This document shows, in pieces, positions 31,247 through 50,818 of a DNA stretch of 64,000 nt (position 1 is the stretch's first letter; every line of letters begins with the position of its first letter). The notes below the pieces were generated by a model. That model made no database searches. It was not told where the DNA came from and saw only the letters and a program-made list of their open reading frames with translations. Made by a program: the position numbers and the translations under genes. Source of the stretch: Brachybacterium sp. SGAir0954 (GTDB lineage: Bacteria > Actinomycetota > Actinomycetes > Actinomycetales > Dermabacteraceae); the NCBI RefSeq assembly GCF_005490785.1, contig NZ_CP027295.1:930001-994000 (forward strand), written 5' to 3'.

Positions 31247-31261
31247 TTCAACGTTGTAGCA
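31247..31261. promoter_or_regulatory. LacI-type operator site A, next to the araD ribosome binding site
   Basis: TTCAACGTTGTAGCA contains CAACGTTG and the right half of the motif found at 42642, 47746 and 50803. On the leftward strand it reads CTACAACGTTGAAGGAG, so the site runs directly into the araD ribosome binding site. A repressor here would block elongation from araB or initiation in the araB-araD gap. The regulator encoded at 49676 is the likely binder (inference). Confidence 0.6.
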
Positions 31262-31315
31262 GGACGTGCGGGGGATCCGACGGGCGCGCGGAGCGCCCGT
31301 CGGGGGAGGGGAGGT

Positions 31316-32950
31316 TTAGCCGAGCGTCTCGCCGGCGAGCCGCTCGACGGGCAGCGCGGCGGTGTACGCCTCGAGCCAGCGGGCGTAGCCGGCTACGCCC
31401 TCGGGGGAGGGCTCGAGCACGCTCTGGTCCGCGCCGGCGAAGACCTCCTGATCCAGGAAGTCCGCGAGGGAGAGGTCCCCGTCGCCGTGTCGGCGGCGGC
31501 GGGCATAGGCGGCGAGCAGGGCCATGCCCCAGGCGCCGCCCTCGCCGGCGGAGGCGCCGACCGCGACGGGGGTGTCGATCGAGTCGGCGAGGACCTGCTG
31601 GGCCACGCCCGCGGTGCGGAAGATGCCGCCGTGGGCGTGCATGACGTCGAGCTGCACGCCCTCGTCCACGAGCAGGGCGCGCATGCCCACCGCGAGCGCC
31701 CCGAAGGCGCCGTGCAGCTGGGCACGCATGAGGTTCTCGAGCGTGAAGCGGGCGGACTGCTCGCGCACGAGCAGCGGGCGGCCCGAGGGCACGCCGGTCT
31801 GGTGCTCGCCGGCGAGGTAGTTGTAGCTCAGCACGCCGCCCGCGTCGGCCTCGCCCTCGGCGCCCGCGCGGAACAGCGTGGAGTAGAGCTCCTCCGCGGG
31901 GACCGGAGAGCCGGAGAGCTCCGCGAAGCGCGCGAAGACGCCCAGCCAGGCGTCGAGGTCGCCCGTGCAGTTGTTCGTGTGGATCATCGCGACCGGGTCC
32001 CCGGCGGGCGTCGTGACCAGGTCGATCTCCTCGCGGGGACCGGAGAGCGGCCCCTCGAGCACGACCATCGCGAAGGCGCTCGTGCCGGCGCTGACGTTGC
32101 CGGTGCGCGGGCCCACCGCGTTCGTGGCGACCATGCCGGTGCCGGCGTCCCCCTCGGGCGGGGCGGCGACGGCGCCGGGGCGCAGGGTGCCGCTCGGGTC
32201 GAGCAGCCGCGCGCCCTCCTCGGTGAGCTCTCCCGCCTCCTCGCCCGCGCCGAGCACCTCGGGGAGCAGATCGCGCAGGGTCCAGGGACGGGAGGAGAGG
32301 GCAGGGAGCGCCTGCGCCTTCTCGAGCAGGTCCGCGTCGTAGTCGCTGCCGTCGGCGGCGATGGGGAACATGCCGGAGGCGTCGCCCACGCCGAGCGCGT
32401 GGCGGCCCGTGAGGCGGCGGTGCACCCAGCCGGCGAGCGTCGTGATCGCGCCGAGGCGGTCCACGTGCTCCTCGTCGCCGAGCGCCGCGTGCAGCAGGTG
32501 GGAGACGCTCCAGCGCAGGGGGATGTTCAGCCCGAGCGTGGAGGAGAGCAGCGAGGCGGCGTCCTCGGTGTAGGTGTTGCGCCAGGTGCGGAAGGGGACG
32601 AGCTGCTCGCCCTCCGCGTCGAGGGCCAGGTAGCCGTGCATCATGCCGGAGATGCCGATCGAGGCGAGCTGCGTGAGCTCCGTGCCGTGCTCGCGGCGCA
32701 CCGCCTCGGCGAGGTCCGCGTAGCAGGCCTGCAGCCCGGCCTCGGCGTCCTCGAGGGCGTAGGTCCAGTTGTCCTCGACCAGGGCGTTCTCCCAGGCGTG
32801 GGAGCCGGTGGCGAGGACCGTGCCGGCGTCGTCCACGAGGGCGGCCTTGATGCGGGTAGAGCCGAGCTCGATGCCGAGATGGGCGCGCCCGTCGGCGATG
32901 AGGGCGGCCGGCGCGGCATGGTCGGCAGAGGTCACGGCGTCGTGCGTCAT
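31316..32950 (-). CDS. araB: Ribulokinase-type FGGY sugar kinase
   Basis: A 544-residue FGGY kinase with LGIELGSTRIKAALVD (first phosphate motif), GISGMMHGYLALD, NVSAGTSAFAMVV (second phosphate motif), and HAHGGIFRTAGVAQQVLAD plus GASAGEGGAWGMALLAAY (adenosine site). Its place directly before araD and araA shows that it phosphorylates L-ribulose. The sequence is of the type found in actinobacterial arabinose operons and differs from E. coli AraB. The ATG at 32950 lies six bases after a TGGGAT -10 box, so the transcript may be nearly leaderless. Confidence 0.9.
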   Translation of the reverse strand: MTHDAVTSADHAAPAALIADGRAHLGIELGSTRIKAALVDDAGTVLATGSHAWENALVEDNWTYALEDAEAGLQACYADLAEAVRREHGTELTQLASIGISGMMHGYLALDAEGEQLVPFRTWRNTYTEDAASLLSSTLGLNIPLRWSVSHLLHAALGDEEHVDRLGAITTLAGWVHRRLTGRHALGVGDASGMFPIAADGSDYDADLLEKAQALPALSSRPWTLRDLLPEVLGAGEEAGELTEEGARLLDPSGTLRPGAVAAPPEGDAGTGMVATNAVGPRTGNVSAGTSAFAMVVLEGPLSGPREEIDLVTTPAGDPVAMIHTNNCTGDLDAWLGVFARFAELSGSPVPAEELYSTLFRAGAEGEADAGGVLSYNYLAGEHQTGVPSGRPLLVREQSARFTLENLMRAQLHGAFGALAVGMRALLVDEGVQLDVMHAHGGIFRTAGVAQQVLADSIDTPVAVGASAGEGGAWGMALLAAYARRRRHGDGDLSLADFLDQEVFAGADQSVLEPSPEGVAGYARWLEAYTAALPVERLAGETLG

Positions 32951-32956
32951 AGAGTC

Positions 32957-32995
32957 ATCCCATCATCCCGCCACGGTGATGTCAACGTTCACATC
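32957..32995 (-). promoter_or_regulatory. araB promoter with LacI-type operator
   Basis: On the leftward strand a -35 TTGACA (32985-32980), 17-base spacer and -10 TGGGAT (32962-32957) precede araB. The -35 box lies in a near-perfect palindrome, GATGTCAACGTTCACATC (32978-32995), symmetric in 16 of 18 positions with the central AACGTT typical of LacI operators. The same motif occurs at 34239, on the other side of the LacI gene at 33049. Confidence 0.75.
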
Positions 32996-33048
32996 GGGAT
33001 TCCCGATGGTGCTCCCGGGTGCCCGATGAGAGTGCCCGACGACGGTGC

Positions 33049-34071
33049 TCAGTGCGTGCGCTCGGGCCGCGTGGAGCGACGCACCACGAGCCGCGGCGGC
33101 AGCGCCCGCGGGGTCTCCGCGGCCTCGGTCGCCCCGTCCATCAGCTCCACCAGGTGGCCCAGCGCGGCGCGCCCGACCTCGGCGAAGGGCTGGGCGACCG
33201 TGGTGAGAGAGGGGAGCAGGAACTCCGCGCCGAGCGTGTTGTCGAAGCCCACCACGGCCACGTCCTCGGGGATGCGGAGACCCCGCTCGTGCAGGGCGTG
33301 GAGCACCCCGATCGCCATCATGTCGTTCGCCGCGAAGATCGCCTCCGGCCGGCCGCGCTCCAGCACCTGCAACGTGAGCTCGTAGCCCGAGCGCGGGGTC
33401 CAGTCCTCCGAGCCCAGCACCTCGGCGTCCAGACCCTCGGCGGTGACGGCCGCCTCGAACCCGCAGCGGCGGGCCCGCGCGTCGAACCAGTCGGGCGGCC
33501 CGGCGAGGTGGACCACCGAGCGCACCCCCGTGCGTCGCAGGTGCGCGACCACCTCGCAGGCTCCGCGGCCCTGGTCGATGCCGACCACCTCGACGCCGGC
33601 CTCCGCCGAGGTCTGCGCGGAGATCGCGACCACCGGCGCCGCCTGCGCGACGGCCCCGACCGCCGGGTCCATCCCCGCGTGGGCGGCGATGACGAGGATG
33701 CCGTCGACCCCGGACCCCAGCAGCTCCGCGCCGACCTGGTCCGCGCCCTGACCCCCGGGCGGCATCGAGGTCAGCAGCACCGAGTAGCCCGCCTCGCGGG
33801 CGGCGATCTCGACGGCCGTTGTCGTCTCCGCCGGGCCGAACAGCGAGGAGCCGTCGGTCAGCACGCCGATCAGCGAGGAGCGGGAGGTCTTCAGCGCCCG
33901 CGCCGCCCGGTTGCGCGCGTAGCCCAGGTCCGCGATCGCCGCGAGCACGCGGTCGCGGGTGTCCGGGCGGACGATCCCGGGCTCGTTGAGCACCCGCGAG
34001 ACGGTCTGGTAGGAGACGCCGGCGCGTGCGGCGACATCGCCCATCGAGGGGCGGCGCGGGGCAGTGCTCAT
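33049..34071 (-). CDS. LacI family transcriptional regulator (probable arabinose regulator)
   Basis: A 340-residue LacI-type repressor. The helix-turn-helix and hinge occupy residues about 10-65 (MGDVAARAGVSYQTVSRVLNE, then YARNRAARALKTSRS), followed by a periplasmic-binding-protein-like sensor domain with IFAANDMMAIGVLHALHERG, PEDVAVVGFDN and a C-terminal RLVVRRSTRP. The ATG at 34071 follows GAGGAGGA. It sits between araB and the ChvE-type importer genes, whose control regions share the palindrome GATGTGAACGTTNNCAT. I infer that it binds both and responds to arabinose. Confidence 0.92.
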   Translation of the reverse strand: MSTAPRRPSMGDVAARAGVSYQTVSRVLNEPGIVRPDTRDRVLAAIADLGYARNRAARALKTSRSSLIGVLTDGSSLFGPAETTTAVEIAAREAGYSVLLTSMPPGGQGADQVGAELLGSGVDGILVIAAHAGMDPAVGAVAQAAPVVAISAQTSAEAGVEVVGIDQGRGACEVVAHLRRTGVRSVVHLAGPPDWFDARARRCGFEAAVTAEGLDAEVLGSEDWTPRSGYELTLQVLERGRPEAIFAANDMMAIGVLHALHERGLRIPEDVAVVGFDNTLGAEFLLPSLTTVAQPFAEVGRAALGHLVELMDGATEAAETPRALPPRLVVRRSTRPERTH

Positions 34072-34224
34072 GGGGAGTCCTCCTCGTCCAGGGCGAATCC
34101 TCGGGCTGCGGGAACCCCGCAAAGATACCGCTGACCTGTGCGGACAGCGAGCCGTGCCCGGTGGCGGCGCCGTCGTCGGCACCAGGAACCGTTGCCGACC
34201 CGTGACCGACCGGGGCGGCGATTC

Positions 34225-34257
34225 TTGACACGTGCGTCGATGTGAACGTTAGCATTC
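34225..34257 (+). promoter_or_regulatory. Promoter and operator of the ChvE-type importer operon
   Basis: A consensus -35 TTGACA (34225-34230) and -10 TAGCAT (34250-34255) with a 19-base spacer face the binding protein gene at 34359. The -10 box overlaps GATGTGAACGTTAGCATT (34239-34256), which shares GATGTGAACGTT with the reverse complement of the araB site at 32978. Spacing is slightly long, which could mean a weak or activated promoter. Confidence 0.7.
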
Positions 34258-34358
34258 AGGCGTTCCCCGCCCCGGCACAGGCGCCGCGCAACAACCGCGC
34301 AGCGGCGGAGGGACGGACCTGCTGACAGCAGCACACGGCGAATCAACGAGGAGAAGCC

Positions 34359-35510
34359 ATGTACAACCGCAGAGACTTCCTGGTGGGGGCGACGGCCGCG
34401 GCGGCCGTCCTGGGACTGGCCGCGTGCGGCGGCAGCGGAGCCGGCTCCGGCGGCCCCGACACCGACGCCGCCCCGAGCGACCAGACCGTGGGCGTCGCGA
34501 TGCCCACCCAGACCTACGAGCGCTGGGTCGCCGACGGCAACAACATCAAGAAGGGCCTCGAGGAGAAGGGGTTCACCGTCGACATGCAGTACGCCGACGA
34601 CGACATCCCCACCCAGCAGCAGCAGATCGACCAGATGGTGAACAAGGGCGTGAGCGCCCTGCTCATCGCCTCGATCGACGGCGCCTCGCTGTCCTCGCAG
34701 CTCGACGCCGCGGCCGCGGCCGGGATCCCGGTCATCGCCTACGACCGCCTGCTCACCGACAGCGAGAACGTCGACTTCTACGTCACCTTCGACAACTACA
34801 AGGTGGGCGTGAACCAGGCCAACGCGCTGCTGTTCGGCCTGGGGCTGCTCGACGAGAAGTTCGAGAAGGCCGCCGACGCCCCGAAGGGCCCGCTCAACGT
34901 CGAGCTCTTCGCCGGCTCCCTCGACGACAACAACGCCCACCTGTTCTGGAAGGGCGCGATCGACACCCTCCAGCCCTACTTCGACGACAAGACCCTCACG
35001 GTCCTCTCGGGGCAGATGGACATCGAGCAGGCCGCCACCCAGCGCTGGGAGCAGGAGACCGCCCAGAAGCGCATGGAGAACCTGCTGACCACGCACTACA
35101 ACGGCGGCCAGGAGCTGGCCGGCGTGCTCGCCCCCGCTGATCCGCTCTCCCGCGGCATCATCAACGCCCTGCAGAACGCGGGCCTGGGCCCCACCCTCGA
35201 GGACGGCCTGCCCGTCGTCACCGGCCAGGACGCGGAGATCGCCTCGATCAAGCTCATCGCCGACGGCGTGCAGTCCTCGACGATCTTCAAGGACACCCGC
35301 CAGCTCGCCGAGCAGGCCATCGTCGCCGCGGAGTCCATCCTCAAGGGCGAGGACCCCGAGGCCAACGACACCGAGACCTACGACAACGGCGTGAAGGTCG
35401 TGCCCTCGTACCTGCTCGAGGTCCAGATGGTGCTCGAGAGCAACTACAAGGAGATCCTCGTCGACTCCGGCTACTACACCGAGGAGCAGGTGAGCTCCGG
35501 CCAGCTCTGA
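34359..35510 (+). CDS. chvE: ChvE-type multiple-sugar-binding lipoprotein
   Basis: A 383-residue cluster-D binding protein of the ChvE/XylF group. The N terminus NRRDFLVGATAA leads to a GLAAC lipobox (Cys23). The mature part shows VGVAMPTQTYERWVADG, ADDDIPTQQQQIDQMVNKG, LLIASIDG and IAYDRLL, then DNNAHLFWKGA, all in the order of ChvE. ChvE homologues bind arabinose, galactose, xylose and related sugars. AGGAG precedes the ATG. A strong hairpin separates it from the ATPase gene. Regulation by the neighbouring LacI protein is likely. Confidence 0.92.
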   Translation: MYNRRDFLVGATAAAAVLGLAACGGSGAGSGGPDTDAAPSDQTVGVAMPTQTYERWVADGNNIKKGLEEKGFTVDMQYADDDIPTQQQQIDQMVNKGVSALLIASIDGASLSSQLDAAAAAGIPVIAYDRLLTDSENVDFYVTFDNYKVGVNQANALLFGLGLLDEKFEKAADAPKGPLNVELFAGSLDDNNAHLFWKGAIDTLQPYFDDKTLTVLSGQMDIEQAATQRWEQETAQKRMENLLTTHYNGGQELAGVLAPADPLSRGIINALQNAGLGPTLEDGLPVVTGQDAEIASIKLIADGVQSSTIFKDTRQLAEQAIVAAESILKGEDPEANDTETYDNGVKVVPSYLLEVQMVLESNYKEILVDSGYYTEEQVSSGQL

Positions 35511-35533
35511 GCCGCAGCCCCGCGATATCCGAC

Positions 35534-35564
35534 GGGGTCCCGGCGCGCCCCGCGCCGGGACCCC
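35534..35564 (+). terminator. Intercistronic hairpin (attenuator or mRNA stabiliser)
   Basis: GGGGTCCCGGCGCG (35534-35547) is the exact reverse complement of CGCGCCGGGACCCC (35551-35564), a 14-bp stem with a 3-base loop, 24 bp past the binding protein stop and just before the AGGAGGT of the ATPase gene. Such hairpins after binding protein genes usually keep the binding protein in excess over the membrane parts (known for maltose and other ABC operons). Confidence 0.7.
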
Positions 35565-35581
35565 CGACCCCAGGAGGTCCC

Positions 35582-37123
<1,542 letters not shown>

Positions 37124-37132
37124 GCGCGCCTC

Positions 37133-38314
37133 ATGGCCGGAACTTCTGACATCAGGGAGCTGCTGACGCGCAACATGCGCTCGAGCGGCATCTACATCGC
37201 GTTCGTGTTCATCATCGTGCTGTTCACGATCCTCACGGGCGGCCAGCTGCTGAGCCCGGGCAACCTCACGAACCTCGTGCTGCAGTACTCCTACATCCTC
37301 ATCCTCGCGATCGGCATGGTGCTGATCATCGTGGCCGGGCACATCGACCTCTCGGTGGGCTCCGTGGTCGCGCTGACGGGCGCCGTCGCCGCCGTCGTCG
37401 TGATCGGGAACGGCCTGCCCTGGTGGGTGGGCGTGCTCGCCGCGCTCGGCACGGGCGCCCTCGTGGGCCTGTGGCAGGGCTTCTGGGTCGCGTTCGTGGG
37501 CATCCCCGCGTTCATCGTCACCCTCGCCGGCATGCTGATCTTCCGGGGCCTCACGATGCAGGTGCTCGGCAACGTCTCGCTCTCGCCGTTCCCGCGCGAG
37601 TACCAGTACATCTCCGGCGGCTTCCTCAACGGGCTGCTGGGCGGCAACGGCTTCGACGCCTTCACCCTGTTCCTCGCGGCCGCGCTGATCGTCGTCTACG
37701 CGGTCCAGCAGTACCGGGGCCGCCTCGCGAAGCTCACGTACAAGCAGCAGGTCGAGGCGCAGTTCCTCTTCTGGATCAAGACCGCGGCCGTGGCGCTCGT
37801 GGTCATGGCCTTCGCCTGGCAGCTCGCGCACTCGCGCGGTCTGCCGGTGGTGCTGATCCTGCTCGCCGCGCTGATCCTCATCTACGGCTTCGTCAGCCAG
37901 CGCACGATCTTCGGCCGGCACATCTACGCGATGGGCGGCAACCTGCAGGCCGCGCAGCTCTCCGGCGTGAAGACGCGGCGGGTGAACATGTGGCTGTTCG
38001 TCAACATGGGCCTGCTCTCCGCGGTCGCGGGCATCGTCTACTCGGCCCGCTCGAACAGCGCCCAGCCGGGCGCGGGGAACATGTTCGAGCTCGACGCGAT
38101 CGCGGCCGCGTTCATCGGCGGCGCGGCGGTCACGGGCGGCGTGGGCAAGGTCCACGGCGCGATCATCGGCGGCCTGATCATGGCCGTCATGTCCAACGGC
38201 ATGCAGATCATGGGCATCGACCAGTCCACGCAGTCCGTGGTGCGCGGCGTGGTGCTGCTGATCGCCGTGGCCTTCGACGTCTGGAACAAGAAGCGCTCGC
38301 AGAGCGGTGCGTGA
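37133..38314 (+). CDS. gguB: CUT2 sugar ABC transporter permease (GguB type)
   Basis: A 393-residue membrane protein of the BPD_transp_2 family with about ten helices. Typical CUT2 blocks are AIGMVLIIVAGHIDLSVGSVVAL and VGIPAFIVTLAGMLIFRG, and the ATPase-contact region FGRHIYAMGGNLQAAQLSGVKT. A longer loop near YRGRLAKLTYKQQVEAQF is as in XylH/GguB proteins. It starts nine bases after the ATPase stop. It completes the ChvE-GguA-GguB importer for arabinose or related monosaccharides. Confidence 0.95.
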   Translation: MAGTSDIRELLTRNMRSSGIYIAFVFIIVLFTILTGGQLLSPGNLTNLVLQYSYILILAIGMVLIIVAGHIDLSVGSVVALTGAVAAVVVIGNGLPWWVGVLAALGTGALVGLWQGFWVAFVGIPAFIVTLAGMLIFRGLTMQVLGNVSLSPFPREYQYISGGFLNGLLGGNGFDAFTLFLAAALIVVYAVQQYRGRLAKLTYKQQVEAQFLFWIKTAAVALVVMAFAWQLAHSRGLPVVLILLAALILIYGFVSQRTIFGRHIYAMGGNLQAAQLSGVKTRRVNMWLFVNMGLLSAVAGIVYSARSNSAQPGAGNMFELDAIAAAFIGGAAVTGGVGKVHGAIIGGLIMAVMSNGMQIMGIDQSTQSVVRGVVLLIAVAFDVWNKKRSQSGA

Positions 38315-38315
38315 C

Positions 38316-38341
38316 CCGTGCGGGGAGCACTCCCCGCACGG
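38316..38341 (+). terminator. Terminator hairpin after the ChvE-type importer
   Basis: CCGTGCGGGGAG (38316-38327) pairs perfectly with CTCCCCGCACGG (38330-38341), beginning right after the permease stop codon. It is followed by TCCCCTC and then by a second hairpin, so it probably ends the operon. Confidence 0.8.
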
Positions 38342-38348
38342 TCCCCTC

Positions 38349-38396
38349 GGAGCCCGCTCGCCGGCATCGGACCCCCGGTGCCGACGGGCGGGCTCC
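38349..38396 (+). terminator. Second, longer hairpin in tandem
   Basis: GGAGCCCGC (38349-38357) pairs with GCGGGCTCC (38388-38396), enclosing a further short CCGGC/GCCGG-type pairing. Together with the preceding hairpin it makes a double terminator in front of the next operon. Confidence 0.6.
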
Positions 38397-38541
38397 GTCG
38401 TGCGCGGATGACGCGCCGGAGTGGCCGGTGACCAGGCGCGACGCACCGTGATCCGATCGTGACGGCAGAAGCGATGACAACGTGAGAAACTCGCCCCAGC
38501 CGCGGGGTCGCGGCAGTGGGAACTCATCAAAGGAGATGGCC

Positions 38542-39804
38542 ATGTCCACGAAGAACCGGATCACCCGACGCAGCGCGTTCGCCCTGGGCGGCGCGACCAT
38601 GGCGGCGGCGGGCCTCGCGGCCTGCGGCGGCAACACCGGTGGCCTCACCGGGGGCGGCGGCAGCGACGGCGGGGGCGGGGCGCTCTCGCAGTGGTACCAC
38701 CAGTACGGCGAGGAGGGCACGCAGCAGGCCGCGAACTCCTACGCCGCGGACTACCCCGACGCGAAGGTCACCGTGAACTGGGTGACCGGCGACTACGCCA
38801 CGAAGCTCTCCACCGCCCTGCTCTCCGGCGGCGGGGTCGACGTCTTCGAGAACAACGGCATCGCCGTGGACCAGGCCGAGCAGGGCCGCTACGTGGACCT
38901 CACCGACATCATGGAGCCGGCCAAGGGCTCCTTCAACGAGGCCTCGCTGGGCCCCGTGACCATCGGGGACAAGATCTGGGGCGTCCCGATGATCGTGGAC
39001 CCGCAGCACTTCTACTACCGCAAGTCGCTCTTCGAGGCCGCCGGCATCGAGGTCCCCACGACCTGGGAGGACCTCGTCGCCGCGGCCACCGAGCTCACCA
39101 CGGACAAGCAGAAGGGCCTGTTCCTCGGGAACAACTTCGACGCGAACGCCTGGGCGATGGTCTGGGCCGCGGGCGGCTCTCCGCTGAACGAGGCGAAGGA
39201 CGCCGTCGCCTACAACACCCCCGGCTACGCCGAGGGCCTGGGCTCGATCCACACCATGCAGAAGGACGGCGTGCTCCTCACCGGCGCCCCCTCGGACTGG
39301 ACCGACCCGGCGGCCTTCTCCTCCGGTCTCTCCGCGATCACCTGGGGCGGCTGCTGGGCGCTGCCGGCCCTCGAGGCCGCGCACGACGACATCGGCGTGT
39401 TCCCGCATCCGGCCGTCGGCTCCGGCGGCAAGGAGGTCGCCTTCATGGGCGGCTGGAACGCGCAGGTCGCGGGCAACTCGGAGAACATCGAGGCGGCCAA
39501 GGAGTTCGTGAAGTGGCTGTGGATCGACCAGACCGAGCACCAGACGGACTGGTCGCTCAGCTACGGCTTCCACATCCCGCCGGTCACCGCGACCGCGGAC
39601 CAGGCGGAGGCGCTCAAGACCGGCAACGGTCTCGAGATCGCGACCATGGCCAAGGAGATCGGCGTGACCGGCACCCCCGAGTGGACGGGCGCCATGGACA
39701 CCCCGCGCCTCGACGCCGTCTCGAACATCCTCAAGAACGGCGCCGACCCCGCCGAGGAGCTCGCGAAGGCCGAGAAGGCGAGCAACGAGGCGATGGCGTC
39801 GTGA
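38542..39804 (+). CDS. Sugar ABC transporter substrate-binding lipoprotein
   Basis: A 420-residue cluster-B binding protein with a twin-arginine signal TRRSAFALGGATM and lipobox GLAAC (Cys28), followed by a Gly-rich linker. The mature part has LSQWYHQYGEEGTQQAANSYAAD and VTGDYATKLSTALLSGGG, with VFENNGIAVDQAEQG, as in CUT1 receptors. The ATG at 38542 has AGGAG six bases upstream; the ATG at 38536 is too close to it. Two permeases and a GH43 enzyme follow in one operon, so an arabinose- or galactose-containing oligosaccharide is the likely ligand. Confidence 0.92.
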   Translation: MSTKNRITRRSAFALGGATMAAAGLAACGGNTGGLTGGGGSDGGGGALSQWYHQYGEEGTQQAANSYAADYPDAKVTVNWVTGDYATKLSTALLSGGGVDVFENNGIAVDQAEQGRYVDLTDIMEPAKGSFNEASLGPVTIGDKIWGVPMIVDPQHFYYRKSLFEAAGIEVPTTWEDLVAAATELTTDKQKGLFLGNNFDANAWAMVWAAGGSPLNEAKDAVAYNTPGYAEGLGSIHTMQKDGVLLTGAPSDWTDPAAFSSGLSAITWGGCWALPALEAAHDDIGVFPHPAVGSGGKEVAFMGGWNAQVAGNSENIEAAKEFVKWLWIDQTEHQTDWSLSYGFHIPPVTATADQAEALKTGNGLEIATMAKEIGVTGTPEWTGAMDTPRLDAVSNILKNGADPAEELAKAEKASNEAMAS

Positions 39805-42579: not shown

Positions 42580-42630
42580 CGGCCCGCCCGCGGGGTCGCC
42601 GCTGGCCCGTGCGGGAGATCCGCGCGGGTG

Positions 42631-42659
42631 TTGACCGTCACTTTACAACGATGTAGATT
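42631..42659 (+). promoter_or_regulatory. Promoter with LacI-type operator site B
   Basis: A -35 TTGACC (42631-42636), 17-base spacer and -10 TAGATT (42654-42659) lead to the binding protein gene at 42795. The spacer and -10 hold TTTACAACGATGTAGA (42642-42657), a close copy of the motif TCTACAACGTTGTAGA. Bound repressor would cover the polymerase site. The promoter core aligns base by base with that of the arabinanase gene at 47744-47772. Confidence 0.75.
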
Positions 42660-42794: not shown

Positions 42795-44144
42795 ATGAAC
42801 CAAGGCTCCCCACGGAGGGCCGCAGGAGGACCTCGTCCTCGCATGACCCGCCGCTCGATGCTCCAGGGCCTCGGCGGCCTGGGCGCCCTCGGCGCGACCG
42901 GCTCCCTCGCCGCTTGCGGCAGCGCCGGCGCGCAGGGCGTCGGCGACCTCGCCTACTGGCACCTGCTCTCCGGGCCGGACGGCGTCACCATGACCGAGCT
43001 CGTCGACGGCTACACGGCGACCGACGGCGCCCCCGGCGTCAAGCAGACCGTGCTCGCCTGGGGCGCGCCGTACTACACGAAGCTCGCCATGGCCTCCTCC
43101 GGCGGCCGCGCCCCGGACCTCGCCGTCATGCACGCCGCGCGCGTGCCCGGCTACGCGCCCGGCGGCCTGCTCGACGAGTGGGACCTCGACCTGCTCGGCG
43201 AGTTCGGGGTGAAGAAGGAGGACTTCCCCGAGCTCATCTGGGACAAGATGGTCGTGGACGACAAGCTCACCTGCATCGCCCTGGACTCCCACCCGTTCGT
43301 CCTCTACTACAACACCGACATCGCGGACGCCGCCGGCGTGCTCGGCAGCGACGGCCTGCTGCTGCCGACGAACACCCCGGAGGACTTCCGCGAGCTCGCC
43401 CTCGAGCTCGGCGCGAAGTCCCCCAGCGGCTACGGCCTCTCCTGGGGCTACCTCGGTGACGGCTCCAACCAGTGGCGCATGTTCTCGACCTACTACACGC
43501 AGCTCGGCGGCACGATCGAGCTTCCCGAGGGCGGGACCATGCAGTACCAGGAGGAGCTCGTCGTGCAGACGGCGGAGTGGATCCTCTCGCTCATCGACGG
43601 CGAGGTCGGCAACCCCGGCAACGACGGCGGCACCGCGATCTCCGAGTTCGCGACCGGCAGCACCGGCGCCTTCTACGGCGGCGTCTGGGAGTCCGGCAGC
43701 TACCGCAACGAGGGCGTCCCCTTCGACATGACCGTCATCCCCGGCGTGTTCGGCGAGCCCGCGGCCTACGCCGACTCCCACTCCTTCGTGCTGCCCCACC
43801 AGAGCAGCCCGGACGAGGCCAAGCGCCGCTCCGTGCACGAGATGGTCGCCTACCTCCTGAAGAACTCGATCTCCTGGGCGGGCGCCGGTCACATCCCGGC
43901 GTACTCCCCGGTCGTGCAGGACCCGGCCTACGCGAAGCTGATCCCGCAGTCGCACTACGCGGACGCGATCGACCACCTCGTCTACGACCCGCCCGCCTGG
44001 TTCACCGGCTCGGGCAGCGACTTCCACACCTACTTCGGCAACGACATGCAGAACGTGTGGGCGCGCCGCACCTCCCCGCTCGAGGGCTGGAACGCCTTCG
44101 TCGCCCGCATCAACGACCTGCTCGCCAAGCCGAGCCCGATGTGA
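42795..44144 (+). CDS. Sugar ABC transporter substrate-binding lipoprotein
   Basis: A 449-residue cluster-B binding protein. The N terminus holds MTRRSMLQGLGGLGALG (twin-arginine type) and a lipobox SLAAC (Cys41). The mature part begins DLAYWHLLSGPDG and contains LAWGAPYYTKLAMASSGGRAPDLAVMH and MQYQEELVVQTAEW. The ATG at 42795 follows AAGAGGTGGA; an in-frame ATG at 42684 would start within the leader. The LacI-type site upstream, shared with arabinanase and GH51 genes, suggests that it binds arabinooligosaccharides. Confidence 0.92.
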   Translation: MNQGSPRRAAGGPRPRMTRRSMLQGLGGLGALGATGSLAACGSAGAQGVGDLAYWHLLSGPDGVTMTELVDGYTATDGAPGVKQTVLAWGAPYYTKLAMASSGGRAPDLAVMHAARVPGYAPGGLLDEWDLDLLGEFGVKKEDFPELIWDKMVVDDKLTCIALDSHPFVLYYNTDIADAAGVLGSDGLLLPTNTPEDFRELALELGAKSPSGYGLSWGYLGDGSNQWRMFSTYYTQLGGTIELPEGGTMQYQEELVVQTAEWILSLIDGEVGNPGNDGGTAISEFATGSTGAFYGGVWESGSYRNEGVPFDMTVIPGVFGEPAAYADSHSFVLPHQSSPDEAKRRSVHEMVAYLLKNSISWAGAGHIPAYSPVVQDPAYAKLIPQSHYADAIDHLVYDPPAWFTGSGSDFHTYFGNDMQNVWARRTSPLEGWNAFVARINDLLAKPSPM

Positions 44145-44169
44145 TCCGCCTCGTCGAAGGAGACGTGAG

Positions 44170-45135
44170 ATGACGACCGCTGACGGCGTGACCGTCCCCC
44201 GCACCAGCCCCCGCCCGAACGCCGCCCTCACGGGCGGCCCGATCAGCGAGGGGCGCCGCCGGCGCCGCCGCGCCGAGAACATCCGGGGCTGGGTCTACTG
44301 CCTGCCCTTCCTCATCGCCTTCGGGCTCTTCCTCATCTGGCCCACGATCTACGGGCTCTGGATGAGCTTCACGGGCACGAGCCTCGCCGGCACCAAGACC
44401 GGCTTCGTGGGCCTCGCGAACTGGACCGAGGCGCTCGGCGACGCGAACGTGTGGACGTCGCTCGCCAACACCGCCGTGTTCACCGTGCTCTCCTCGATCC
44501 CGCTCGTGCTCATCGCCATGGGGCTCGCGATCCTGGTCAACGTGGGCCTGCCGGGGCAGTGGTTCTGGCGCCTCGCGTTCTTCCTGCCGTTCCTGCTCGC
44601 CTCGACGGTGGTCTCGAAGTTCTGGAACTGGATGTACAACCCGCAGCTGGGCCTCGTGAACACGGTGCTGGGCTGGTTCGGGATCACCGGCCCGGCCTGG
44701 CTGCAGGATCCGAGCACCGCGATGATCTCCGTGGTCATCACGACCGTGTGGTGGACCATCGGCTTCAACTTCCTGCTCTACCTCGCCGCGCTGCAGAACA
44801 TCCCCGACCAGCTCTACGAGGCCGCGAGCCTCGACGGCGCGGGCCGCTGGCGGAAGTTCCGCTCGATCACGGTGCCGCAGCTCGCCCCGACCACCGTGCT
44901 GGTGCTCGTGCTGCAGCTGCTCTCCTCGCTGAAGGTCTTCGACCAGATCTACCAGATGACCTCCGGCGGCCCCGGCGGCGATACCCGCCCGGTCCTGCTG
45001 TACATCTACGAGGTGGGCTTCACGGGCTACCGCCTGGGCTACGCCTCCGCCATCTCCTACATCTTCTTCTTCATGATCATCATCGTCTCGCTCGCGTACA
45101 TGGTGATCTCCTCCCGACGGAGCGTGAAGGCATGA
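44170..45135 (+). CDS. CUT1 sugar ABC transporter permease (MalF type)
   Basis: A 321-residue membrane protein with a run of arginines before the first helix, six helices and the EAA loop YEAASLDGAGRWRKFRSITVP. TSGGPGGDTRPVLLYIYEVGF is the usual MalF-side region. A strong GAAGGAG precedes the ATG, 25 bp after the binding protein stop. Its stop overlaps the next permease start by four bases. Confidence 0.93.
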   Translation: MTTADGVTVPRTSPRPNAALTGGPISEGRRRRRRAENIRGWVYCLPFLIAFGLFLIWPTIYGLWMSFTGTSLAGTKTGFVGLANWTEALGDANVWTSLANTAVFTVLSSIPLVLIAMGLAILVNVGLPGQWFWRLAFFLPFLLASTVVSKFWNWMYNPQLGLVNTVLGWFGITGPAWLQDPSTAMISVVITTVWWTIGFNFLLYLAALQNIPDQLYEAASLDGAGRWRKFRSITVPQLAPTTVLVLVLQLLSSLKVFDQIYQMTSGGPGGDTRPVLLYIYEVGFTGYRLGYASAISYIFFFMIIIVSLAYMVISSRRSVKA

Positions 45136-46070
45136 GCGCCGCGAACCCCACCACCAGCCCCGCCCTCCCCGCGACCCGCGGGAAGCGCCGCGCCGACGCC
45201 GCCGAGCGCACCGCGGCGACCACCGCCGCCGGCCGACGACGGCGCCGCACCGACCCCGCCCGCGTGGTCGCCTTCGTGATCCTGCTGGTCCTCGCCCTGG
45301 CGTGGCTCGTGCCGGTCCTGTGGGCGGCGCTGACCTCCTTCAAGACGGAGGCCGAGGCGGCCGCGCTGCCGGTGACGATCGTGCCGGAGAGCGGCTTCAC
45401 GCTCGACGCGTACATCACCACGCTGACCTCCGGCCAGGTGCCGCGGTGGGCGTGGAACAGCCTTCTGACCTCCACCGCGATCACGTTCATCACGGTCGTG
45501 ATCTCGGCGCTCGCCGGCTACGCGCTCTCCCGCATGGAGTTCGTGGGCCGCAAGGCGATCGTCGCGCTGATCCTCGCCTCGATCATGATCCCGGGGCAGA
45601 TCCTCATCGTCCCGCTGTTCCAGCTCATGCTCGGGCTGAACCTCGTGGACACCTACTGGGGGATCATCCTCCCGCAGGTGGTCGCGGCGCCGATGGTCTT
45701 CATCCTCATGAAGTTCTTCGACCAGATCCCGCGCGAGCTCGAGGAAGCCGCCCTCATGGACGGCGCGAGCCGCCTGCGGATCCTGTGGAGCATCGTGCTC
45801 CCGCTGTCGCGGCCGATCCTCGGCGCCGTCTCGATCTTCGTGTTCATCGGCGCCTGGAACAACTTCCTGTGGCCGTTCATCGTCGTCAACGACGCAGACC
45901 TCATGACCCTGCCGACGGGCCTGCAGACGGTCATCAGCGCCTACGGCATCCAGTACGCGCAGAACATGGCCCAGGCGATGCTCGCGGCGCTGCCGCTGAT
46001 CATCGTGTTCCTGTTCTTCCAGCGTCAGATCATCAAGGGCATCTCGACGACCGGCATCGCCGGCACCTGA
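45132..46070 (+). CDS. CUT1 sugar ABC transporter permease (MalG type)
   Basis: A 312-residue membrane protein with a long basic N-terminal tail (about 40 residues), six helices, the EAA loop LEEAALMDGASRLRILWSIVLP and the ending IIKGISTTGIAGT. It is the last gene of the 42795-46070 importer operon, which ends at a very strong hairpin. The importer is probably specific for arabinooligosaccharides, by virtue of its operator and its arabinanase neighbour. Confidence 0.93.
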   Translation: MSAANPTTSPALPATRGKRRADAAERTAATTAAGRRRRRTDPARVVAFVILLVLALAWLVPVLWAALTSFKTEAEAAALPVTIVPESGFTLDAYITTLTSGQVPRWAWNSLLTSTAITFITVVISALAGYALSRMEFVGRKAIVALILASIMIPGQILIVPLFQLMLGLNLVDTYWGIILPQVVAAPMVFILMKFFDQIPRELEEAALMDGASRLRILWSIVLPLSRPILGAVSIFVFIGAWNNFLWPFIVVNDADLMTLPTGLQTVISAYGIQYAQNMAQAMLAALPLIIVFLFFQRQIIKGISTTGIAGT

Positions 46071-46087
46071 TCCCCGGTCCTCCCATG

Positions 46088-46125
46088 CGGCGGCGGCGCT
46101 CCCCACGCGGGGAGCGCCGCCGCCG
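46088..46125. terminator. Strong bidirectional terminator hairpin (17-bp stem)
   Basis: CGGCGGCGGCGCTCCCC (46088-46104) is the exact reverse complement of GGGGAGCGCCGCCGCCG (46109-46125), with an ACGC loop. It lies in the 69-bp gap between converging genes (importer permease and arabinanase), so it should stop both. Confidence 0.85.
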
Positions 46126-46139
46126 TGCGTCCGGCCCGC

Positions 46140-47615
46140 TCAGACCTCGCGGCTGCCCCAGAGGGCGCGGCCGTCGGGCCCGAGCACGGTGAAGGTCGGG
46201 GTCCAGGCGTCGAGGCCGTCGTGCCAGCCGCGGGTGAAGGTCCCGTCGAAGCGCGCGCCGTCCAGCTCGATCACGGCTCGCCCGGAGCCCTCCGCGCGCC
46301 AGCGGCCCTGCACGGCGCCGGTGACGGTGCCGTCGGCCCCGAGGGTCACGGGGACCGAGTCGGTGACCTCCGCGGAGATCGCGCGGCCGTGGTCCACGAG
46401 CTGCCAGTCGCCCACGATCTCGTCGCGGCGCAGGCGGGCCTCGCGGGCGGTCGCGGCGGGCTCCCCGGCGTAGCGGTGCGGGGAGGGGACGAGCCAGCCC
46501 GTGCGGGTGAGGTGGAGGCGGTGCACGCGCACCTCGTGCTCCTCGCCGCGGCCCGGGAATCGCGTGTGGAGGATCAGGAAGGACTCGTCGGTCCCCGGCC
46601 GGGTCCAGGCGGAGACGTGGCCGGGGGAGACGTAGCCCTGGCCCTCGGCGCCGTCGCGCTGCGTGAAGCGGTGGTTCCCGAGGAGCTTCACGGCGTAGGG
46701 CTCGATCGAGGCGTCGTCGAACAGCGGCAGGGAGGGGTCGGAGCGGCACTCGCGCAGGTCGTGCCCGGCATGGTCGAGGTAGGGGCCCTCGACGGAGCGG
46801 GAGCGGCCCACGCGCACGTTGTAGCCGCCATCGGCGTCGAGCCCGCCGAAGGTGACGAAGAGGTAGTAGTAGCCGCTCTCCTCGGAGCGCAGGATGTACG
46901 GCGCCTCGATGCGGGAGTGGTTCCCGCCCACGAGGTGCACGCCGTAGCCCTGGCCGGGGACGGGCCGGCCGGTCGCGGGGTCCAGCTCGAGCAGGAAGAT
47001 CCCGCCGGAGTAGGAGCCGTAGACGAGGCGCAGCACGCCCTCGGCGTCGACGAAGGCCTGCGGGTCCACGACGTTGGGGTGCACGAGCGCGTCGTAGATC
47101 GTGCCGTCCTCGCTCTCCTGGTCCCACTGGCCCGAGCGCAGGAAGATGCCCTCGTCGCGGTAGGGGCCGGTGATCTCGTCGGCCACGGCGGATCCGAGCG
47201 CGGAGCGCGGGGAGCTGCCCTCGCACGCGCAGTAGTACATGCGGAAGCGGCCGTCGTCGGCCCGGTGCACGTCCGGTGCCCAGAGCGTGGTGGTGTTCGC
47301 CCATGCGAAGGCCTCGGCGAGCTCGACGGTGACGTCCTCGAAGAGCGGGTTCTCCGGGGTGACGAGATCCGCGACGCCGGTCCAGCGCAGGAGGTCCGGC
47401 GTGCGGGCGGCCGCGAGGTGGGAGCCGAAGACGTACAGCTCGTCGCCGGCGGCGACGATCGAGGGGTCGTGCACGGAGATCTCGGCGAACGTGGGGTCGG
47501 GGAGCGTGCGCCGTGGTGGGGCGGCGGTCGCGCCCGGGGCGGTCAGGGCCGCGGCCCCGGCGGCGGTGAGGGCGGCGGTCGAGCCGATCAGGGTGCGGCG
47601 GGAGAGCGTGCTCAT
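46140..47615 (-). CDS. abnA: Secreted GH43 arabinanase
   Basis: A 491-residue secreted enzyme: twin-arginine signal LSRRTLIGSTAAL with cleavage near residues 31-33. The propeller domain carries the three acidic residues Asp50 (VHDPSIV), Asp184 (NVVDPQAFV) and Glu237 (RIEAPYILR), and YGSYSGGIFLLEL typical of endo-arabinanases. A C-terminal beta-sandwich (about 405-491, VGDWQLVDHG to FTRGWHDG) is the extra domain of this group. It would cut alpha-1,5-arabinan outside the cell to oligosaccharides for the 42795 importer. GAAGGAG precedes the ATG. Endo or exo action cannot be decided by eye. Confidence 0.88.
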   Translation of the reverse strand: MSTLSRRTLIGSTAALTAAGAAALTAPGATAAPPRRTLPDPTFAEISVHDPSIVAAGDELYVFGSHLAAARTPDLLRWTGVADLVTPENPLFEDVTVELAEAFAWANTTTLWAPDVHRADDGRFRMYYCACEGSSPRSALGSAVADEITGPYRDEGIFLRSGQWDQESEDGTIYDALVHPNVVDPQAFVDAEGVLRLVYGSYSGGIFLLELDPATGRPVPGQGYGVHLVGGNHSRIEAPYILRSEESGYYYLFVTFGGLDADGGYNVRVGRSRSVEGPYLDHAGHDLRECRSDPSLPLFDDASIEPYAVKLLGNHRFTQRDGAEGQGYVSPGHVSAWTRPGTDESFLILHTRFPGRGEEHEVRVHRLHLTRTGWLVPSPHRYAGEPAATAREARLRRDEIVGDWQLVDHGRAISAEVTDSVPVTLGADGTVTGAVQGRWRAEGSGRAVIELDGARFDGTFTRGWHDGLDAWTPTFTVLGPDGRALWGSREV

Positions 47616-47743
47616 GGTGACTCCTTCGTCGGTCCGGGCCGGCGCCGGTGACGGGGTCGCCGGTGCTGCGGGCCCGGGGGAGGGGTGCGTGCGAGTGGTC
47701 GCACGGGGCACTGCGGCAGGACGTCGGCGTCGCTGCCACGAGC

Positions 47744-47772
47744 AATCTACAACGTTGCAGAAGTCACGGCCA
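47744..47772 (-). promoter_or_regulatory. Arabinanase promoter with LacI-type operator site C
   Basis: TCTACAACGTTGCAGA (47746-47761) differs from the palindrome TCTACAACGTTGTAGA in one base. On the leftward strand it overlaps a -10 TAGATT (47749-47744) with a weak -35 TGGCCG (47772-47767) at 17 bases. The site also lies just before the GTG of the divergent membrane protein gene, which it could control too. Confidence 0.75.
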
Positions 47773-48324
47773 GTGGCATCCGGCCGGGGGCCGACGTCGC
47801 CTCCCGACGTACGGCCGCGTCGCCCCCGAGAGCCGACGTCCGCGCCCCCGGGGGGCCGTCGTGCCCTCGGCCTGCCGGTGATCGCCGTCGTGGGCCTCGC
47901 CCTGCTCGCCGTCCCCCGGGTGGTGCTCCACGACCTGGGGGTGCTCACTCCGGGGACGGCGCTGAACCTCGTGCTGGTCGTGGCCCCGCCGTTCGTGTGG
48001 GTGGCGACCGCGCTGCTCGCCGGCGTGCGGCGGCCGTTCGTCACGCTCCTCGCGATCGGGGTGGTCCACGCGCTGCTCCTGGCCCTCGTGCACCAGCTGC
48101 TGTGGGGCGCGGCCTTCGCGGGCGCAGCCCCGCGGCTCGGCGGGCGGCTCGCAGGGCTCGATCCCCTCGTGCAGGAGCTCGTGCTGCGCTCGGCGGCGAT
48201 CGTCTCGAGCCTGGTGACGGGGATCGTGCTCGGCGCGGTCCTGGGGCTGCTCGCCGAGGTGCTCGCCCGGGTCGCCCGAGGTGGCCGGGGCCGTGCTCAG
48301 CGGCGGAGCGTGAGCACCCGGTAG
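47773..48324 (+). CDS. Small four-helix membrane protein of unknown function
   Basis: A protein of about 183 residues with a basic, proline-rich N terminus and four hydrophobic segments: GLPVIAVVGLALLAVPRVVL, LNLVLVVAPPFVWVATALL, FVTLLAIGVVHALLLALV and IVSSLVTGIVLGAVLGLLAEV. I do not recognise the family. The GTG at 47773 is my best start; a GTG at 47878 just before the first helix is possible. Its last 28 bases overlap the end of folA on the other strand. It lies between arabinan genes and thyA-folA, and nothing in it suggests a sugar role. Confidence 0.6.
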   Translation: MASGRGPTSPPDVRPRRPREPTSAPPGGRRALGLPVIAVVGLALLAVPRVVLHDLGVLTPGTALNLVLVVAPPFVWVATALLAGVRRPFVTLLAIGVVHALLLALVHQLLWGAAFAGAAPRLGGRLAGLDPLVQELVLRSAAIVSSLVTGIVLGAVLGLLAEVLARVARGGRGRAQRRSVSTR

Positions 48325-48854
48325 CGCAGTCCCGACGCGCCGACGGACCAGCCCTCCGCGGGCTCGGAGGCGCGCAGGGTGAGGCCCGCGGGGATCGCGG
48401 GGGCGAGGGTGTCGCCCTCGACGTCCAGGTCGATCTCGGTGACGACGAGGAGGTCCGCGCGGTCCATCGCCTCGCGGTACACGCGACCGCCGCCGATCAC
48501 CCAGATCGTGCTGGGCTCCTCGGCGGCCGTGCCCTCGGCCGCGGAGGCCCGCGCCGCGAGGTCCTCCCGGGCGAGGTCGAGCGCCTTGTCCAGCGAGCCC
48601 GCGCGCAGCGCGCCGTCGGCCGCGAAGCCGGGATCGGAGGTGATGACGATGTTCGTGCGCCCCGGCAGGGGCCGGAAGCGCGGCGGGAAGGACTCCCAGG
48701 TGCGGCGGCCCATGACGACGGGGGCGCCCGCGGTGGTGCGCGAGAAGTGCTGGAGGTCCTCCGGGAGGTGCCAGGGCATGGTGCCGCCGGCGCCGATCAC
48801 GCCCCCCCGGGCCTGCGCCCAGATCATGCCGATGCGCGGCGCGTGCTCCGCCAT
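48297..48854 (-). CDS. folA: Dihydrofolate reductase
   Basis: A 185-residue enzyme that reduces dihydrofolate to tetrahydrofolate with NADPH. Typical blocks are IGMIWAQARGGVIGAGG, MPWHLPEDLQHFSRTT with the catalytic acidic residue, VVMGRRTWESFP, LPGRTNIVITSD and TIWVIGGGRVYREAM. It is longer than E. coli FolA by a 15-residue insertion (ARASAAEGTAAEEP). The ATG overlaps the thyA stop by one base (TGATG), so the two are translated together, as fits dTMP synthesis, which produces dihydrofolate. Confidence 0.95.
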   Translation of the reverse strand: MAEHAPRIGMIWAQARGGVIGAGGTMPWHLPEDLQHFSRTTAGAPVVMGRRTWESFPPRFRPLPGRTNIVITSDPGFAADGALRAGSLDKALDLAREDLAARASAAEGTAAEEPSTIWVIGGGRVYREAMDRADLLVVTEIDLDVEGDTLAPAIPAGLTLRASEPAEGWSVGASGLRYRVLTLRR

Positions 48855-49666
48855 CAGACGGCGACCGGGGCCTTGATCCCCGGGTGGTGCTCGTAGCCCA
48901 CCACCTCGAAGTCCTCGAACTCGTAGTCGAGGATCGAGTCCGGGCGGCGGGTGATCCGCAGCTGCGGCGGGGCGAAGGGCTCGCGCGCCAGCTGCCGCTC
49001 CACCTGCTCGACGTGGTTGTCGTAGATGTGCACGTCCCCACCGGTCCACACGAAGTCGCCCACCTCGAGATCCGCCTGCTGGGCGACCATATGGGTGAGC
49101 AGGGCGTAGGAGGCGATGTTGAAGGGGACCCCGAGGAACATGTCCGCGCTGCGCTGGTAGAGCTGGCAGGACAGCTTCCCCTCGTGCACCTCGAACTGGA
49201 ACAGGGCGTGGCAGGGGGCGAGCGCCATGTCGGGGACGTCGGCCGGGTTCCAGGCGGTGACGATGTGCCGGCGCGAATCGGGGTTCGTGCGGATCTGCTC
49301 GACGACCTGCGTGATCTGGTCGATGACGCCGCCGTCGCGGGTGGGCCAGCTGCGCCACTGCGCGCCGTAGACGGGGCCCAGCTCGCCGTCGGCATCCGCC
49401 CACTCGTCCCAGATGCTCACGCCGCGCTCCTGCAGCCAGCGCACGTTCGTGTCGCCGCGCAGGAACCACAGCAGCTCGATCGCGAGCGAGCGGAAGTGCA
49501 CGCGCTTGGTGGTGATCAGCGGGAACCCCTCGGAGAGGTCGAAGCGGATCTGACGGCCGAACACGCTGCGCGTGCCGGTGCCGGTGCGGTCCGACTTGTG
49601 CGTGCCGGTGGCCAGCACGTCGCGCAGGAGGTCCTCGTACGGGGTCGCGATGTTCATCGGGTCCAT
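48854..49666 (-). CDS. thyA: Thymidylate synthase
   Basis: A 270-residue ThyA that methylates dUMP to dTMP using methylenetetrahydrofolate. It aligns with E. coli ThyA nearly end to end: [44 protein letters not shown], the catalytic Cys152 in [22 protein letters not shown] and [17 protein letters not shown] precedes the ATG at 49666; an ATG at 49657 is also in frame. This housekeeping pair lies inside a sugar-use region, between the arabinanase and its probable regulator. Confidence 0.97.
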
Positions 49667-49675
49667 TCTCTCCCC

Positions 49676-50743
49676 TCAGGCGGGGAGCAGGGCAGTGCTC
49701 TCGCGCACCACGAGGTCGTAGGGCGTCATGACGGTGCGGGGCGGGCCGTCGTAGCCGCCGATCCGCTCGATGAGGAGGTCCAGCACCGTGGTGGCGAGGG
49801 CCTGCTTGTCCGGGGAGACGGTGGTGAGCGGGGGAGAGGTGAAGGGGGCGTCGGGCGTGTCGTCGTAGCCGATCACCGCGACGTCCTCGGGCACCCGGCG
49901 GCCGTGGCGGCGCAGCCGGGAGAGCACGCCGATCGCGAGGTCGTCGTTGCCGCACACGATCCCGTCGACCTCGGGCAGGCGCTCGAGCAGGGCCTCGGCG
50001 CCGTCGGCCCCGTCCTGGCGGTGCCAGTCGCCCACCTCCTGGATCGTCGCCGCGGAGGGGTCGAGGCCGTGGGCGGCGAGCGCGCGCAGGAAGCCGTCGC
50101 GGCGCAGCGTGCCGGAGCTGTGGGGCTGCACGCCGTGCGCGGAGGGGATCGCGCCGAGGAAGGCGAGGCGCCGGCGCCCCTGGTCCAGCAGCAGCGAGGT
50201 GGCCTCGAAGGAGGCGCCCTCGTTGTCGATCTTCACGTAGTCGCAGCCACGGGGCAGCTGCTCGGGGAGGTGCTCGCCGATGAAGACGGTGGGCTGGCTC
50301 GTGCGCTCCATGCGCGCGAGCTCCTCCTCCCAGAGCTGCAGCGGGTTGAAGATGACGCCGTCGCCGAGCACCCGCTCGAAGCCCTGGAGCACGGTGCGCT
50401 CCGCCTCCGGCCCGGCGGAGGTCGTGTGCAGGACGACGGTGCGCCCGCGGCGCTGGGCCTCGTCGATGAAGGCCTGGGCGATGTCGGAGTAGTAGGTGAA
50501 GGTGAGCGAGGGCAGGGCGAGGGTGATGAGCCCGCTCGCGCCCGTGCGCAGCTGCTGGGCGGCGGCCTGGGGGCGGTAGCCCACCTGGGCGATCGCGGCG
50601 AGCACCCGATCGCGGGTCGCCTGCTTCACGTAGGGGTAGTCGTTGACCACGTTGGAGACGGTCTTGATGGAGACCTGGGCGATCTCGGCGACGTCGCGCA
50701 GGGTCGGGGGACGCTGCGGGAGCGGTCGGGGCGGCGTCGGCAT
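49676..50743 (-). CDS. LacI family transcriptional regulator (probable arabinan/arabinoside regulator)
   Basis: A 355-residue LacI-type repressor with a helix-turn-helix (TLRDVAEIAQVSIKTVSNVVN), hinge (RPQAAAQQLRTGASGLI) and sensor domain containing VDGIVCGNDDLAIGVLSRL, EDVAVIGYDD and DLVVRESTALLPA. It is divergent from the GH51 gene, with site D (50803-50818) in the 141-bp gap. Four copies of this motif occur in the window, all at arabinan or arabinose genes, so this protein is their likely regulator (inference). The ATG at 50743 has only a weak binding site. Confidence 0.92.
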   Translation of the reverse strand: MPTPPRPLPQRPPTLRDVAEIAQVSIKTVSNVVNDYPYVKQATRDRVLAAIAQVGYRPQAAAQQLRTGASGLITLALPSLTFTYYSDIAQAFIDEAQRRGRTVVLHTTSAGPEAERTVLQGFERVLGDGVIFNPLQLWEEELARMERTSQPTVFIGEHLPEQLPRGCDYVKIDNEGASFEATSLLLDQGRRRLAFLGAIPSAHGVQPHSSGTLRRDGFLRALAAHGLDPSAATIQEVGDWHRQDGADGAEALLERLPEVDGIVCGNDDLAIGVLSRLRRHGRRVPEDVAVIGYDDTPDAPFTSPPLTTVSPDKQALATTVLDLLIERIGGYDGPPRTVMTPYDLVVRESTALLPA

Positions 50744-50802
50744 GGGCAGATTCTTGCACCGACCGGCGTGCATTGACGTGCGGGGGCGGACGTGGTGGGA
50801 TA

Positions 50803-50818
50803 TCTGCAACGTTGTAGA
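50803..50818. promoter_or_regulatory. LacI-type operator site D between the LacI gene and GH51
   Basis: TCTGCAACGTTGTAGA is one base from the perfect palindrome TCTACAACGTTGTAGA. It lies 66 bp before the GH51 ATG and 60 bp before the LacI ATG, so it could control both. A TTGACG (50773-50778) and the AT-richer GATATC next to the site are possible promoter parts, at a long spacing. Confidence 0.72.

Follow-up and report, generated by a model that had tools for sequence, protein, structure and literature searches.

A probable local LacI-type regulon for arabinan use in Brachybacterium, with conserved candidate operators at three loci and a weak match before araD

LacI-family regulons for sugar use have been reconstructed by genome comparison (PMC4052901), in a study that calls the Actinobacteria under-represented and whose main text lacks the string 'arabin'. 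According to the description in PMC5928203, AauR and AbfR of Bifidobacterium are LacI-family local regulators for the use of alpha-arabino-oligosaccharides, with GH43/GH51 alpha-L-arabinofuranosidases, endo-arabinanases, an ABC (ATP-binding cassette) importer for alpha-arabino-oligosaccharides and their own gene as predicted targets. The same description links AraQ of three other actinobacteria to araBDA and araFGH, and AraQ regulons of Actinobacteria are also described in PMC4746261 and PMC6882875. Here we analyse a LacI-family gene, LacI_A, and its candidate operators in a 64,000-nucleotide stretch of Brachybacterium sp. SGAir0954 (the window; positions 930001-994000 of a single-contig 3.41-Mb genome). 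The LacI_A set contains an arabinofuranosidase, an arabinanase, a predicted oligosaccharide importer and the regulator's own gene, as the AauR/AbfR regulon does; this likeness is one of regulon content alone, taken from the published description, and we claim no membership. Unlike its bifidobacterial counterparts, LacI_A belongs to another actinobacterial lineage and its gene is joined to thyA-folA. An ordinary local LacI regulon for arabinan use, resembling the known AauR/AbfR kind, is well supported by the comparisons below. Judged by title, literature searches for Brachybacterium with arabinan returned nothing on regulation, and those for LacI with arabinan led to bifidobacteria.

The genes and sites assigned to this regulon are the following:

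42642..42657, no strand: operator TTTACAACGATGTAGA, in the spacer of the promoter-like pair TTGACC-N17-TAGATT (42631-42659)
42795..44144, plus strand: solute-binding protein of an ABC importer (Pfam SBP_bac_1; start taken from the sequence)
44170..45135, plus strand: permease 1 of the importer (Pfam BPD_transp_1)
45240..46070, start approximate, plus strand: permease 2 of the importer (Pfam BPD_transp_1)
46140..47615, minus strand: GH43 endo-1,5-alpha-L-arabinanase, AbnB-like (Pfam GH43 and GH43_C)
47746..47761, no strand: operator TCTACAACGTTGCAGA, 130 bp before the arabinanase start
49676..50743, minus strand: LacI_A, LacI-family regulator (Pfam LacI and Peripla_BP_3; ATG start taken from the sequence; recognition helix VSIKTVSNVV)
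50803..50818, no strand: operator TCTGCAACGTTGTAGA, in the 141-bp divergent gap between LacI_A and GH51a
50885..52402, plus strand: GH51a, alpha-L-arabinofuranosidase, ArfA equivalog (Pfam; NCBIfam NF051901, 685 bits against a cut-off of 625)

The usual LacI operator is an even palindrome with a central CG. A palindrome with a central CG lies near the LacI_A gene and near its candidate targets, and the 49676-50776 reading frame carries both PF00356 and PF13377. Four of the five named records among the close relatives of the LacI_A protein are from Brachybacterium (71-77% identical). The arabinanase scored 599 bits against the AbnB family (NCBIfam NF053746), below the cut-off of 750; its N-terminus is signal-like (RRTLIGSTAALTAAGAAALTAPGATA) and the enzyme is apparently secreted.

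An earlier note on this DNA had proposed one operator motif at four loci, with the LacI gene touching one copy. The literal 16-mer, TCTACAACGTTGTAGA, had no exact copy in the window. Allowing up to three mismatches, we found exactly four window matches, at 31245 (three mismatches), 42642 (two), 47746 (one) and 50803 (one), and no matches in 100 shuffles. The same search of the whole genome gave six places, the four in the window plus 753845 and 3300021, and the 16-mer read backwards as a control gave none genome-wide. The core CAACGTTG is confined to five places genome-wide, of which three belong to this cluster (31249, 47750, 50807); the 42642 site carries CAACGATG instead. Given this rarity of both motif and core, the set of four is not a product of chance, although its members are unequal. 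The sites at 42642, 47746 and 50803 hold up as copies of one operator motif, whereas the match before araD, which begins at 31245 and not at 31247 as first given, is weak. The LacI_A start stands 59 bp away from the 50803 site.

To score these sites we built a matrix from 22 sites of relatives, excluding those of the window. The training sites had first been chosen by likeness to the previously noted motif, so that the matrix is not independent of that motif, and gene-by-gene conservation is a stronger test than matrix scores. In leave-one-out scoring the training sites reached 22.7-30.9. The sites at 50803 (30.1), 47746 (30.1) and 42642 (25.4) fell within this range and were the only ones above 20 among the six genome-wide matches; 31245 scored 16.7, below every training site, and 753845 and 3300021 scored 9.9 each. 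Chance expectations came from a near-identical earlier matrix of 23 sites, with which scores of at least 16 are expected about once per genome and scores of at least 20 were absent from about 21 Mb of simulated sequence. One further match, inside LacI_A itself (50643-50658, score 14.5), was rejected as an operator. It encodes the recognition-helix residues SNVVN, and it recurs in many relatives because these residues are conserved.

Conservation was read in up to 20 kb around the LacI_A-like genes of the genus and in 38 genus genomes. The LacI_A group comprises 26 loci (L059-L083 and L086), one of which (L076) begins at the gene and leaves its gap unreadable. In those loci of L059-L083 that hold the gene, GH51a is 79-88% identical. 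A site scoring 18.5-31.0 was present in the upstream gap of all 25 readable loci of the group; 22 of the 25 gap sites in relatives had also trained the matrix. Upstream regions of 400 bp before orthologous genes contained a site in 13 of 16 relatives for the importer (14/17 with the window) and in eight of nine for the arabinanase (9/10 with the window). By comparison, none of 107 control regions upstream of other genes in the same loci reached 16.7, the highest being 3.3. Many of these controls precede inner genes of operons, and genes whose match started after residue 15 or was at most 60% identical were excluded; one such excluded row, SBP2 of L082, carries a match scoring 16.1 about 112 bp upstream of the part that matched.

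The sites also hold constant positions relative to promoter-like sequences. The importer site occupies the spacer of TTGAC-N17/18-TA(A/G)(A/G)TT in the window and in 13/13 relatives having it (spacing 17, but 18 in two), and at the arabinanase it lies between TTGNNN and TA(A/G)NGT, N17/18, in 8/8 relatives having it; the last five importer and arabinanase cases were judged by eye. The 50803 site directly follows the promoter-like pair TTGACG-N17-TGGGAT for GH51a, and all 23 loci read have TTGAC 29-31 bp ahead of the site, which places the site just past the expected -10. This -10 is poor, and an automatic promoter rule passed 7 of the 23 loci. The importer site is asymmetric, CAACG(A/C)TGTA being kept in 13 of 14 copies (exception, G019 at L157), which suggests selection for an uneven and perhaps weaker operator.

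Across the genus, the site tracks the regulator. A strict form of the pattern was found in none of the nine genomes that lack a LacI_A-group gene and in 22 of the remaining 29, not always beside LacI_A, and its backward control was absent from all 38. The importer (17 genomes; cut-off 1e-130) and the arabinanase (10 genomes; 1e-60) occurred only within the 22 genomes encoding a LacI_A at least 67% identical; since related genomes are not independent, this co-occurrence is not a clean statistic. Order-wide, a search for LacI_A-like proteins at E 1e-80 or better picked out 22 of 396 genomes, and 20 of these belong to the genus. In another family of the order (G098), a LacI that is 47% identical to LacI_A and shares its helix VSIKTVSNVV lies divergently to the gene of a 39%-identical binding protein, and two overlapping copies of CAACGTTG lie between them (L122 2598 and 2611).

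Several observations weigh against a single regulon read by LacI_A. The site was missing within 400 bp upstream of the importer orthologues of G009, G023 and G033 and of the arabinanase of G008, and from the 4 kb read for a 50%-identical LacI outside the genus (G323). The window's own arabinanase has TGGCCG at the -35 position of its relatives, so that no promoter was scored there. A looser pattern (two mismatches) matched once each in two genomes without the regulator (G007, G030) and once as a backward control in G017, and some matches to the strict pattern lie elsewhere in the genome (G002, G004, G019, G020). A paralogue clade (L087-L090) with the helix VSIKTVSNV has no site next to its LacI gene. 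Lastly, a second LacI_A-like gene (60-63% identical, helix VSMKTVSNVV) is present in five relatives (L061, L066, L074, L075, L076) and adjoins the GH51 site in the four that are readable there (all but L076); the protein binding that site could therefore be the paralogue. Duplication with division of targets is a possible origin of this second gene. Within the paralogue clade, L089 alone has matches, weak ones (15.6 and 13.4), some 4 kb off, before a GH51 gene. The helix comparison, whose LacI row for L083 runs partly out of frame, cannot serve as proof of specificity, since L087-L090 combine the VSIKTVSNV helix with no adjoining site.

Taken together, sites that are conserved, co-occur with the regulator gene and sit on promoter-like sequences bear out the proposal of one LacI regulon over the importer, the arabinanase and the GH51/LacI gap, and LacI_A is very probably a local repressor of alpha-arabino-oligosaccharide use. 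When no inducer is present, a LacI_A dimer would occupy the palindrome TNTRCAACGTTGYANA, or a near form of it, at 42642, 47746 and 50803. The bound dimer would block RNA polymerase from within the promoter spacer of the importer (and, in relatives, of the arabinanase) and from just downstream of the -10 of GH51a. The secreted arabinanase would release arabino-oligosaccharides for uptake by the importer; one of these would bind LacI_A and free the promoters, and GH51a would cut the imported oligosaccharides to arabinose. Free arabinose would be handled by a second, parallel LacI regulon (AraQ-like, operator TGTSAACGTTSACA) covering araBDA and araFGH. The placement of the three sites at promoters favours repression; binding by LacI_A, repression over activation, the inducer and the cellular locations are what we infer from such patterns.

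This second regulon, and the fourth match proposed for the first, lie upstream in the window:

28967..30475, start approximate, minus strand: araA, L-arabinose isomerase (Pfam AraA domains)
30481..31236, minus strand: araD, L-ribulose-5-phosphate 4-epimerase-like (Pfam Aldolase_II; GTG start at 31236 taken from the sequence)
31245..31260, no strand: weak match CCTTCAACGTTGTAGC, in the 79-bp araB-araD gap; judged not a supported operator
31316..32950, minus strand: FGGY kinase in the araB position (Pfam FGGY)
32980..32993, no strand: operator TGTCAACGTTCACA, a perfect TGTSAACGTTSACA, before araB
33049..34071, minus strand: AraQ-like LacI regulator, helix VSYQTVSRVL (Pfam, translation)
34241..34254, no strand: operator copy TGTGAACGTTAGCA, two mismatches to TGTSAACGTTSACA, before araF
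34359-35510, 35582-37123 and 37133-38314, plus strand: araFGH-like sugar ABC importer (Pfam)

The first araFGH-like gene is a ChvE equivalog (490 bits, cut-off 460). The kinase scored below the NCBIfam cut-offs for xylulokinase and ribulokinase alike, so that the name araB rests on context. Perfect copies of TGTSAACGTTSACA were found in 27 of the 38 genomes, with a backward control of zero in all. Of these 27 genomes, 24 have a copy on the araD contig, and 20 of those have one 1.7-2.1 kb ahead of araD, which means upstream of araB; the four misses are G005, G011 and G034 (about 3 kb away, on the opposite side) and G020 (3.8 kb ahead of araD). The LacI gene at 33049 neighbours araBDA and araFGH, each of which is preceded by a copy of the same operator, a linkage like that of AraQ in PMC5928203. 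The outer half TGTGA is common to the TGTSAACGTTSACA operator and the B. breve operator TGTGAGC><GCTCACA (PMC6882875), but the centre is AACGTT here and AGCGCT there; the B. breve motif TGTGAGCGCTCACA was thus not found, and because of this difference we call the regulator AraQ-like only. On this sequence evidence araBDA appears to belong to the AraQ-like regulon.

These data bear on the proposed link from arabinan sensing to araD-araA, in which LacI_A would also control these genes through 31245, as a roadblock or at an internal promoter. The rare core falls exactly in the araB-araD gap, and the match has a good half-site on its araB side (GCTACAACG). With copies placed evenly, one of the three others would land in this 79-bp gap with a probability of about 7e-5, a figure for a gap chosen after the fact. 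A strong hairpin of 11 pairs, without a T run, lies between araB and the match (31277-31303, minus strand; stretch z -3.2); it could be an attenuator or a processing site, and araDA may be under separate control. LacI-type control inside the operon is itself plausible, since an AraQ-type operator (0-1 mismatch) occupies the same gap in 6 of the 28 other genomes with a readable region. Yet none of these 28 has a LacI_A-type site before araD (best score, 3.2), the right half of the match coincides with the araD Shine-Dalgarno sequence AAGGAG (31243-31248), and no TTGAC/-10 pair was seen around it by eye. In addition, its matrix score lies under that of every training site, and the araBDA operon has its own operator and its own LacI gene. 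Absence before other araD genes together with this separate operator leaves the link from arabinan to araDA unsupported. The fourth site is probably not part of the LacI_A regulon, and we consider control of araDA by LacI_A unlikely, a species-specific site being possible. A reading of 31245 as a decayed AraQ-type site, at five mismatches to TGTSAACGTTSACA, was likewise not supported. Lack of conservation before orthologous genes, which the earlier note had named as refuting its proposal, thus leaves the three other sites standing and counts against the araD match alone.

Two further readings concern what the three sites themselves do. Another LacI protein, for instance the AraQ-like one at 33049 or LacI_B at 54341, might read them, leaving LacI_A a bystander: the LacI_A and AraQ-like motifs share the AACGTT centre, and a search with the LacI_A protein gave 34 matches in this genome at E 0.001. 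Against this, throughout the genus the site goes with the presence of the LacI_A group and with the gap upstream of that gene itself, the AraQ-like genes adjoin a different motif, and the recognition helices differ (IK in LacI_A, YQ in the AraQ-like protein, PM in LacI_B), which makes a bystander role very unlikely. Alternatively, the sites could have an activating or architectural role, or could be promoter sequence kept for unrelated reasons; they are AT-rich in a window of 72% GC and overlap promoter-like elements that may be conserved anyway. This reading seems to us scarcely credible, as the palindrome is longer than any -10 consensus, at GH51a falls past the expected -10 and not on it, and has no counterpart in the backward control. 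Repression by LacI_A is the preferred account of the three sites. A literature search for the letters CAACGTTG with LacI gave nothing related by title among the matches listed.

Similar sites also occur at other genes of relatives. In L062, L064, L065, L068 and L079-L082, a site (15.3-21.1) lies before or near a second importer about 35-48% identical to the first. In G021 and G031, TCTACAACGTTGTGTA stands at the start of a GH127 beta-L-arabinofuranosidase gene that adjoins a different LacI gene (L084 9833 and L085 2943), and in G002 and G004 a site stands at the start of a GH2-family gene. The GH127, GH2 and second-importer sites hint that operators of this kind are widely used for arabinosides, though LacI_A need not be the protein that reads them.

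The regulator gene is in turn followed by two genes of nucleotide and folate metabolism:

48854..49666, minus strand: thyA, thymidylate synthase (Pfam), starting 9 nt after the LacI_A stop
48297..48857, minus strand: folA, dihydrofolate reductase (Pfam DHFR_1, 144 bits), position conserved in relatives

Such a thyA was found in 24 of the 38 genomes and adjoins a LacI_A-group gene in 23 of them (exception, G037); at E 1e-60 it was absent from the other 14. In one relative (L063), thyA overlaps LacI_A by GTGA, as judged by eye; automatic LacI-thyA gaps in relatives were extrapolated from the window's thyA start and are approximate. It is conceivable, if rather doubtful, that LacI_A-thyA-folA forms one autoregulated operon through which plant-sugar sensing also sets the expression of dTMP and folate genes. 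Alternatively, transcription may simply read through into thyA, or thyA may be served by an inner promoter. Three of the five genomes with a duplicated LacI (L066, L075, L076) have no site directly before LacI_A-thyA; their only site stands about 4 kb upstream, ahead of same-strand genes that are permease-like. Searches of the literature on thyA with LacI and arabinofuranosidase gave nothing related, judged by title. This tie of the repressor gene to thyA-folA is the most interesting feature of the neighbourhood.

For arabinan use in Brachybacterium, these results provide a regulator, a motif and a set of genes that have been tested by conservation, and correct a tempting link to araDA as unsupported. 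The two parallel LacI regulons, with their common AACGTT centre, offer a usable case for the LacI recognition code.

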